Origin: Candidatus Gastranaerophilales bacterium
GTDB lineage: Bacteria; Cyanobacteriota; Vampirovibrionia; Gastranaerophilales; Gastranaerophilaceae
Length of the DNA: 64,000 nucleotides
Reading direction: 5' to 3'
NCBI GenBank assembly: GCA_944324395.1
Contig: CALUWC010000008.1
Span: 1-64,000, forward strand
The position numbers were made by a program, and so were the translations under genes. Of the stretch, positions 51,721 to 54,489 are shown piece after piece (position 1 is the first letter of the stretch; each line of letters begins with the position of its first letter). Under the pieces are notes generated by a model, which saw only the letters and a list, made by a program, of their open reading frames with translations, did no database searches and had not been told where the DNA came from.

Positions 51721-51957
51721 TTAAATATTTACATCCAACAATTCGCTTACTTTTATTTTCAACTCTTTAGCAATTAGAACAAGACAATAAACAGAAGCAC
51801 ATTTTATTCCCTGTTCTAATGCACTTATATAAGTCCTATCGACTTCTACCAGCTCAGCTAATTTTTCCTGAGAAAGGTCATTTTTACAACGATAAAATTT
51901 TATTGCATTACCTATTTTTTGAGCAATTCTCTTTTTTAATTTCTCGTCCTTTCGCAT
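51721..51957 (-). CDS. XRE-type controller protein of the island
   Basis: 78 residues forming one Cro/C1-type helix-turn-helix (KIGNAIKFYRCKNDLSQEKLAELVEVDRTYISALEQG). The size matches restriction-modification controller (C) proteins. It is divergent from the methyltransferase gene, and the 135-nt region between them contains paired operator-like sequences. No SD precedes the ATG, and a -10-like CATAAT lies about 8 nt upstream, so a leaderless mRNA is plausible, as in some C genes. Confidence 0.7.
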   Translation of the reverse strand: MRKDEKLKKRIAQKIGNAIKFYRCKNDLSQEKLAELVEVDRTYISALEQGIKCASVYCLVLIAKELKIKVSELLDVNI

Positions 51958-52092: not shown

Positions 52093-53145
52093 ATGGCAAA
52101 CGAAAACTTAAAAAATGCTAAAAAGGCTAAAAATGATGAATTTTATACTCAATGGGCAGATATAGAAAAAGAAATTATGGCATATATAGAATATAATCCT
52201 GATGTATTCAAAGATAAAACTGTTTTGCTGCCATGTGATGATCCTGAATGGAGTAATTTTACAAAATTCTTTGCCCAGAATTTTGAGGCTTTCGGGTTAA
52301 AAAAACTAATTAGTACAAGTTATGCCTATGAAAGCAAAAGAGTAAATATACCTTATCAAATTTCGTTGTTTGAAGAACAGGCTCCGCATTTTGACCCTGA
52401 AATAAATAAAACCAGAGGTAAAATATTTACACTTGACCATGATACAAATAAAAACGGTGTCATTGATATAGAAGATTTACAATGGCAATATCTGGAAGGC
52501 GACGGAGATTTCCGAAGCGACGAAGTAAAAAGACTACGTGATGAAGCAGACATAATTATTACAAATCCGCCATTTTCATTATTTAGAGAATTTCTGGCAT
52601 GGATTATAGAGGCGGATAAGAAATTTGCAATTGTAAGTAATAAAAATGCAGTTACCTACAAAGAAGTTTTCCCGTTAATTAAAGAAAACAAAATCTGGTC
52701 CGGACGGACAGAATGGGCTGGCGGTATGTGGTTTGAGACAAAAGATAAAAATAATGTTGATGAAGTAATTAATGGAATTGACATGAAAAATATTCCTTCT
52801 GTCTGGTTCACAAACATTGAACATGGCAGACGTCATCAGCCGCTTCAATTGATGACAATGGCAGATAATATAAAACACAGCAAGCATAAAGAAATCAGAG
52901 AATATGGATATCAAAAATACGATAACTATGATGCAATAGAAGTTCCTTTCACCGATGCAATTCCAAGTGATTATGAAGGTGTTATGGGTGTACCTATAAG
53001 CTTTTTAGATAAGTATTGCCCTGAACAATTTGAAATAGTAGCATTCCGCAAGGGTGAAGATGGTCGAGATCTCGTATTTACTAGAGAGAGAGAGAGAGTT
53101 CAACCGTACTTTCGTATCCTTGTTCGACTTCGATACCGGGAATGA
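52093..53145 (+). CDS. EcoRI-family adenine-specific DNA methyltransferase
   Basis: 350 residues. It matches the EcoRI-type N6-adenine methyltransferase family (PF13651 as I recall): KNDEFYTQWADIEKEI, LLPCDDPEWSNFTKFF, EGDGDFRSDEV and the catalytic NPPF at 158-161 (IIITNPPFSLFREFL), then VPISFLDKYCPEQFEIV. The frame ends at TGA 53143 after RVQPYFRILVRLR. An (AG)8 repeat at 53083-53098 lies just before this end, and shifts of the repeat would swap the C-terminus. Probable operon with the downstream nuclease. Confidence 0.82.
   Translation: MANENLKNAKKAKNDEFYTQWADIEKEIMAYIEYNPDVFKDKTVLLPCDDPEWSNFTKFFAQNFEAFGLKKLISTSYAYESKRVNIPYQISLFEEQAPHFDPEINKTRGKIFTLDHDTNKNGVIDIEDLQWQYLEGDGDFRSDEVKRLRDEADIIITNPPFSLFREFLAWIIEADKKFAIVSNKNAVTYKEVFPLIKENKIWSGRTEWAGGMWFETKDKNNVDEVINGIDMKNIPSVWFTNIEHGRRHQPLQLMTMADNIKHSKHKEIREYGYQKYDNYDAIEVPFTDAIPSDYEGVMGVPISFLDKYCPEQFEIVAFRKGEDGRDLVFTRERERVQPYFRILVRLRYRE
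53083..53098 (+). repeat. (AG)8 simple-sequence repeat inside methyltransferase gene
   Basis: Eight exact AG units lie in the coding strand, encoding an RERERV-type stretch. A gain or loss of one unit changes the reading frame of everything downstream, as in slippage-driven phase-variable genes. Confidence 0.9.
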
Positions 53146-53326
53146 TAAAAAACGCAGAAGGAAAGATAAATGGGAAAATTACTTACGCAAGAATAACAAT
53201 AAGGCGGAAATTGAACCAATAGATTTATTTTTTCCATTGAGTATTACAAGTCGAGCTGCAGGAACAATGAACGGATTACTCAACGGGAAAGAAACATACA
53301 GAAGAATACTAATAATAAAGAGGTAA
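53146..53326 (+). other. Alternative 3' ends of the methyltransferase gene
   Basis: Two more C-terminal-like blocks follow in the other frames. One frame, open from the AG tract, reads INGKITYARITIRRK (53166-53210) and stops at TAG 53220. The other runs from the tract to TAA 53324-53326 with [17 protein letters not shown] (53279-53323). The two blocks are similar at DNA level. Neither is translated in the present (AG)8 state. They may be alternative ends, or relics of tandem duplication. Confidence 0.6.
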
Positions 53327-53328
53327 AG

Positions 53329-54489
53329 ATGAAAACAGAACTGCATACTGATTGGACTGTAAAAGATATTTGTGAAGGATTTGTTTACAATGAACTTGAA
53401 GGCAAAGGATTATTCGGAATGAATGGTAAATTAACTATTCAACCTGAATATCAGCGTAATTACATTTATGCCGACGGCAAAAAAGATGTTGCCGTTATCG
53501 ATTCAATCCTTAAAGGTTATCCAATTGGTTTGATATACTTTAATCGCCTGGATGACGGTCAATTAGAAATATTAGATGGACAACAGCGTATAACAAGCCT
53601 TGGTCGTTTTATCACAAGCAGATTTGCCATTGTAGATAACGGAATACAGCAATATTTTAGAGGTATAGCAAAAGATAAACAAGATAAAATTCTTAATACT
53701 AAACTGTTGATATATGTTTGTGAAGGCAGCGAAACCGAAATAAAAGAATGGTTTAAAACAATAAACATTGCAGGTATTCCACTAAACAATCAGGAAGTCT
53801 TAAATGCAATATATTCAGGTCCGTTTGTAACTTTGGCAAAAGAAGAATTTAGCAACTCCCAAAATTCAAATATTGCTAAATGGAGTTCATACATAAAAGC
53901 CGTAGTAAACAGACAGGAATATCTTGAACGTGCTCTGGATTGGGTAAGTAAAGGAAATATTGAACACTATATGTCATTACACAGATATGATGACAATATT
54001 AATGAATTAAAAACATATTTTAACTCGGTAATCGATTGGGTTGACAGTATATTCCTTAATGTCTATACCGAAATGCAAACAATCGAATGGGGCAGGTTAT
54101 ATGAACAATATCATAAACAACCATACAATCCTGAAGAAGTCAGCAAAAAAGCAGCTGAATTATATGCAGATGAATATGTAAAAAATAAAAAAGGTATCTT
54201 TGAATATATTTTAGGTGGCAGCAACGACAGTAAATTGCTTGAAATTCGTATATTTGAAGAACGTGACAAAAAAACTGTTTATGAACGCCAAACAAAAGAA
54301 GCTCAAGAAAAAGGGATTTCAAATTGCCCGCTTTGTGCATTAGGTAATGATAATAATAAAACACGAATTTGGAAATTAAATGAAATGGATGCAGACCATG
54401 TTACAGCCTGGTCAAAAGGCGGAGCCACCGATATTAGTAATTGTCAAATGCTTTGCAAAACACATAATAGAGCAAAAGGGAACAAATAA
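53329..54489 (+). CDS. DUF262/HNH endonuclease
   Basis: 386 residues. The N-terminal DUF262 (ParB-like) domain has IQPEYQRNY and the DGQQR nucleotide-binding motif (83-87, [14 protein letters not shown]). The middle is helical. The C-terminus (about 333-386) is an HNH nuclease: CPLC (333-336), [13 protein letters not shown] (353-365) and [13 protein letters not shown] (372-384). This is the GmrSD/BrxU/SspE-like fold class. It starts 2 nt after the last methyltransferase frame and has an AGAGG SD, so it is co-transcribed. It may be the restriction partner or modification-dependent. Confidence 0.85.

Follow-up and report, generated by a model that had tools for sequence, protein, structure and literature searches.

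We propose, at a probability of roughly three in four, that an EcoRI-family methyltransferase locus in a 64,000-nucleotide stretch of a Candidatus Gastranaerophilales genome (the window) acts as a slippage-driven selector that determines which C-terminal module a restriction-modification methyltransferase carries, offering up to three specificities or activities. In the proposed mechanism, an AG tract near the 3' end of the gene would gain or lose units during DNA copying, as the type of tract and the differences between homologues suggest; because the unit length is not divisible by three, each change would shift translation into another of the three frames, and the sequence shows each frame to run stop-free to a different complete end. 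By sequence, all three ends share a terminal beta-strand motif and differ in the variable loop. This loop and a second hypervariable segment, V1, probably form the recognition surface, such that a lineage would switch among at most three methylation specificities or activities. The partner GmrSD_N-HNH nuclease does not co-vary, and we posit that it probably follows the methyltransferase for its targets and that phage-type copies lacking the nuclease would use the switch as an anti-restriction methylase.

The methyltransferase gene and its three ends

The gene (positions 52093..53145, + strand) encodes 350 aa in the n=8 reading state, where n is the number of AG units, and it is identified by its ORF and by Pfam and PADLOC matches. 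The initial annotation had placed this frame in the EcoRI methyltransferase family, and Pfam agrees: PF13651 (EcoRI_methylase) matches residues 5-323 with an E value of 4.6e-116 and 388 bits, against a gathering score of 26.4. The motif NPPF (residues 158-161, N158-F161) is invariant across 76 aligned family members, among which Y339, R341, and I344 are nearly invariant. With this Pfam match, NPPF, and a terminal Y-x-R-I strand, the window enzyme is assigned to the EcoRI family, and adenine-N6 DNA methylation is its predicted activity. PADLOC gives it a single match, MTase_II (E = 1.5e-84), and none to HsdS; NCBIfam yields no match for either the methyltransferase or the partner nuclease. The partner gene (53329..54489, + strand), which begins 183 nt downstream of the methyltransferase gene, encodes a GmrSD_N (DUF262) plus HNH endonuclease according to Pfam and carries the PADLOC label of a Type II restriction enzyme (REase_II, E = 1.3e-86). 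Thus, the window holds a restriction-modification pair with the nuclease gene adjacent. A small divergent gene on the other side (51721..51957, - strand; Pfam HTH_3, E = 9.3e-11) encodes a regulator that is possibly the controller protein.

The (AG)8 tract (53083-53098, + strand) is a non-triplet repeat at the start of the variable tail, with homologous tracts in relatives, and 44 nt separate it from the stop of the present frame (53143-53145). It is the only dinucleotide run of at least 8 units in the window, and the rest of the 1.89-Mb genome holds a single further (AG)6. The initial annotation had correctly located the tract, the stop now in use, and the two alternative frames. As in C-terminal phase variation, there is a non-triplet tract at the 3' end of the gene, and the three frames behind it lead to different C-termini.

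At the present n=8, the protein terminates in RERERVQPYFRILVRLRYRE and reads end A, QPYFRILVRLRYRE (53101..53145, + strand), which is of the M.EcoRI tail type, a type also found beside R.EcoRI. At n=7 or n=10, end C is read (53136..53222, + strand), with its block INGKITYARITIRRK at 53166-53210 and its stop at 53220-53222. Among the homologues that we collected from genomes, viral contigs, phages, and plasmids (designated by L numbers and for the most part known from metagenome assemblies), end C also occurs in L135, L136, L213, L217, and L237, and it resembles the sole end of L181 and of L169. At n=9, a third end is read (53249..53326, + strand; stop at 53324-53326), which resembles the sole ends of L193, L185, and L174 and was not found in any other switching locus. 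The third stop lies 2 nt upstream of the nuclease ATG (53329), and translational coupling of the nuclease could differ between states.

A Y-x-R-I pattern had been claimed for all three ends, and each in fact contains the full terminal motif of the family, Y-x-R-I-x-I. Scored with a position matrix built from the tails of 157 relatives without a repeat, ends A, C, and third reach 21.7, 29.2, and 29.4, respectively, compared with a median of 29.5 for real ends. A chance or shuffled origin of these ends is ruled out by 2000 dinucleotide shuffles of the downstream DNA, in which no frame reached 18, a threshold picked after the distribution of natural scores was known. The likeness at the DNA level that had been noted between the second and third blocks amounts to about 28 identical bases out of 45 by our own count.

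Repeats, end arrays, and selection in relatives

Members of the family share a constant body that closes with GVPI-x-F...QFEI, followed by a highly divergent tail ending in Y-x-R-I-x-I-R. In a subset having FRKGxDGKDL, the tail opens with a simple repeat: (AG)n in L135, L073, L108, L217, L216, and L141; (CA)21 in L139; (CAGA)13 in L034 and a broken CAGA tract in L160; (GAACA)7 in L136; and poly-A in L138 and L131. L119, whose tail type differs, has poly-A9. None of the tracts found at the homologous site (AG, CA, CAGA, GAACA, poly-A) has a 3-base unit. The contigs of L034, L216, and L160 break within the tract; the far sides of L034 and L216 are L213 (genome G361) and L237 (G440), respectively, both contig starts that were read separately and not joined. 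Among 292 genomes of the window's phylum, there are three further FRKG-type genes, none of them repeat-bearing, and the family is present in plasmid and phage collections, with no repeat switch among the records inspected.

The nearest equivalent of the window locus is L135, whose phage-type contig also encodes a terminase-like neighbor (judged from its translation). Its flanks are nearly identical to those of the window, but its tract is (AG)10, and therefore different ends are read at present: L135 reads end C and keeps end A intact in another frame. State A is the present one in the window, L138, and L131, and state C is that of L136 and L217; L135, L136, L217, and L139 are all presently in non-A states. 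Thus, the AG count is not constant among relatives. This variation in tract length lies between homologues, and from it we infer slippage in this organism.

All three post-tract frames are open to an end scoring at least 18 in seven loci (the window, L136, L073, L213, L217, L119, and L237). In L139, two ends pass and the third scores 17.0 against the threshold of 18; two ends pass in L135, L138, and L108, one passes in L131, and none passes in the fragment L141. Across the 314 alternative frames of the 157 non-repeat members, there was one pass only, in L119, itself a poly-A9 switch, and a looser test disregarding linker openness adds L076, which looks frameshifted, and the borderline L118; in shuffled DNA, essentially no end passed. 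In L076 (1173-1324; Elusimicrobia), the present tail is without the terminal motif, and the motif sits in another frame, as a frameshift, an error, or a switch would produce. L136, L213, L217, and L237 carry an identical three-end array, in the same order, behind GAACA, CAGA, AG, and AG tracts, respectively; the repeat unit has been swapped while the array was kept, so that the array persists longer than the unit in front of it.

The ends bear the marks of selection in their own frames. Synonymous and nonsynonymous codon differences number 147 and 48 for end A, 56 and 16 for end B, and 33 and 4 for end C (L136/L213/L217), and over six loci all 23 of 23 third positions of end C vary, versus 11 first and 9 second positions (p = 9e-7); loci with a common array are related and not all independent, and these figures are not to be multiplied together. 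When the identical bases are read in the other frames, the codon differences are nearly all nonsynonymous. When synonymous recoding of the overlapped ends was simulated, only 0 to 4% of the trials at each locus left both linkers open. Alternative ends also match the sole ends of non-switchers, the second end of L073 resembling that of L180, the middle end of L139 that of L162, and the second end of L119 that of L186. The alternative ends are maintained, under purifying selection in their own frames.

How do these results bear on the readings first offered for the window? The proposed choice among alternative C-termini gains support from the tracts of relatives and from the ends that they keep, with slippage itself as the presumed driver; no single end is conserved alone, since elsewhere the successive frames of a locus retain two or three ends, with mostly synonymous changes. 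The suggestion of nested remnants of a duplicated 3' end holds in part. Duplicated GVPI..QFEI segments are still present in L073, L108, and L119, and the three-end arrays probably arose by 3'-end duplication, but the ends are maintained rather than decaying. A recent indel, a pseudogene, or an assembly error, with alternative ends alike by chance, would be a natural suspicion in a genome assembled in 25 contigs, given that dinucleotide tracts are error-prone and that L141 and L131 look decayed. It nonetheless has next to no probability in our estimation: the architecture recurs in many assemblies, phyla, and phage contigs, the same three ends reappear behind AG, CAGA, and GAACA, shuffled DNA yields no such ends, and the alternative ends are under purifying selection. 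Conservation and the recurring three-end arrays together rule out a pseudogene or an assembly error.

Several other arrangements were seen in the family. L119 (3814-4400) is an independent three-state array, with poly-A9 and three tails of other types, two of which carry a repeated GVPI..QF segment. In L115 (1-393), a single frame contains two family-type endings in a row, YHRILIRHR followed by YFRIFIRHR, which may stem from the in-frame fusion of two ends. Plasmids of two Apilactobacillus kunkeei strains (L220 and L221) carry the same methyltransferase, and in one of them the gene and its partner are split into several ORFs. In Helicobacter phage Pt11509_1 (PQ159904; L219), an EcoRI restriction gene is annotated, and the EcoRI-type methyltransferase is annotated as two pieces.

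Probable recognition segments and the partner nuclease

Apart from the tail, the methyltransferase has one hypervariable segment, V1 (residues about 203-237; 52699..52803, + strand), in which the mean identity over 20 aa is 0.32 to 0.40, versus mostly 0.7 to 0.95 elsewhere; V1 is a probable first part of target recognition. In 16 close systems, the methyltransferase is conserved save for residues 181-240 (V1) and 321 onward (the tail), and the partner nuclease is conserved throughout, with no matching hypervariable part. The two segments shuffle independently: just 10 of 311 pairs with similar V1 have similar tails, and the window's V1 type is common to L014, L015, L017, and L018, all with other tails. 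Because the tail shuffles independently of V1 and the partner endonuclease is conserved, the tail is a probable part of recognition, and we suggest that tail and V1 together probably make up the target-recognition surface. V1 and the tail are both common to the methyltransferases that lie beside EcoRI-type restriction genes in Escherichia, Klebsiella, Leuconostoc, and Rhodococcus; the Klebsiella restriction gene has no more specific annotation than "restriction endonuclease". A Helicobacter phage gene shares the tail of the EcoRI-type methyltransferases (the tail alone was compared). In Enterococcus faecium, a gene whose V1 is EcoRI-like has an unrelated tail, and its partner is of the DUF262 kind.

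Two states were modeled with AlphaFold, each in a different homologue: in state A, the mean pLDDT is 91.9 and the last strand spans residues 342-346, and in L157 (state C), a disordered repeat and linker precede a last strand that re-forms at 377-382, which suggests that a different tail can rebuild the strand. The solved structures of M.TaqI and MmeI superpose on model residues 17-318 (Z = 9.3) and 8-320 (Z = 9.0), respectively, up to the start of the tail at residues 318-320; as a sign of a gamma-class N6A methyltransferase fold with a C-terminal recognition part this is weak, since RNA methyltransferases score equally. A sequence search of solved structures found no relative of the methyltransferase, and Foldseek returned nothing at an E value of 0.001 or below. 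In three viral loci (L126:2965-5514, L124:2851-4450, and L125:3434-4326), the methyltransferase is split into an ORF for the catalytic N-half and one to four alternative C-half ORFs, which restart near the same residue, each with its own V1 and tail; the layout resembles a catalytic subunit with several specificity subunits.

Does the tract switch specificity, or does it instead switch activity or stability, with one fully active end and the others weaker or restriction-deficient, in a graded ON/OFF fashion? Known methyltransferase phase variation is mostly ON/OFF, the long out-of-frame linkers are predicted to be disordered and could impair the enzyme, the tails of L073 and L119 repeat part of an upstream segment that may fold badly there, and L108 currently reads a truncated end. 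We nevertheless consider this explanation unlikely, because each of the other ends is preserved in its own frame and is similar to ends that serve alone elsewhere, and because the non-A states in which several loci now stand (L135, L136, L217, and L139) sit poorly with it.

A nuclease homologue starts within 600 nt downstream in 79 of the 90 genome loci with room for one and is found downstream in 40 of 97 viral loci. No such gene accompanies L135, L138, or L131, the translation of L138 retaining a short remnant of the nuclease start. Could tract length mainly alter translational coupling to this downstream gene? The three stops (53143, 53220, and 53324) do lie at different distances from the nuclease ATG at 53329, the third end being nearest, but L135 and L138 keep their alternative ends though nuclease-free, and coupling would leave the preserved amino acid sequence of each end unexplained; we regard it as very unlikely. 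If the nuclease had its own fixed target, switching of the methyltransferase would expose the host; simplest, then, is that the nuclease takes its choice of target from the methyltransferase, and we infer that it probably does so. The parts of the GmrSD family paper available to us contain no link to this methyltransferase. Taking the selector further, we speculate, at somewhat less than even odds, that one tract yields three heritable specificities, that the nuclease follows and the host survives each switch, and that the nuclease-less phage switch matches the state of the host.

Significance and comparison with known systems

Such a locus would be a compact route to a three-state epigenetic switch and to population-level defense against phages adapted to one methylation pattern. 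The variation described here also marks out the segments with which EcoRI-family methyltransferases probably recognize their targets (a sequence search gave no homologous solved structure for the family), and it makes a prediction for long-read methylomes, namely, that a single locus would be accompanied by up to three motifs. Our search of the open-access literature turned up no methyltransferase described as having three preserved alternative ends.

M.EcoRI, encoded on a plasmid next to R.EcoRI, belongs to the same Pfam family, and end A is of its tail type (FRKG..KDL..PYFRILI). Unlike M.EcoRI, the window gene has the repeat, another V1, and another nuclease, and its overall identity to the plasmid genes is about 43% among the matches listed. 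NgoAV is reportedly a Type I HsdS that is truncated or fused depending on a poly-G tract. As in NgoAV, the window has a repeat in a restriction-modification gene, and a change of its length alters what is probably the recognition part; unlike that HsdS, the switching gene here belongs to PF13651, with no HsdS match in PADLOC, and encodes a single-chain enzyme that would choose among three complete ends. Repeat-driven change of specificity is described for the NgoAV poly-G switch (PMC9577141, PMC6789123). Phase-variable Type III mod genes and phasevarions, in which the methylation state alters the expression of a set of genes, likewise have AG or other repeats inside a methyltransferase gene. 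In MmyCI of Mycoplasma, a tract of 12 AG repeats leads to a stop codon and thus to ON/OFF switching (PMC3498834), whereas the window tract lies at the 3' end and would select ends.

Closest in design is the C-terminal phase variation described in Helicobacter canadensis (PMC2823697) and Neisseria gonorrhoeae (PMC5320596), where, in the portions of the two papers available to us, a 3'-end repeat swaps the C-terminus over three frames while expression continues. Barring fusions to the next gene, most of the tails given there are short (1 to about 60 aa), and in those portions we found no report of conserved alternative modules. Unlike those systems, the switch described here belongs to a DNA methyltransferase and has a preserved family-type module at the end of each frame, and among the relatives one array is kept under different repeat units. 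What appears to be new, judged against the open-access literature, is that in several loci two or three ends are each selected in their own frame, and that the repeat unit has been replaced while the array of ends was kept.
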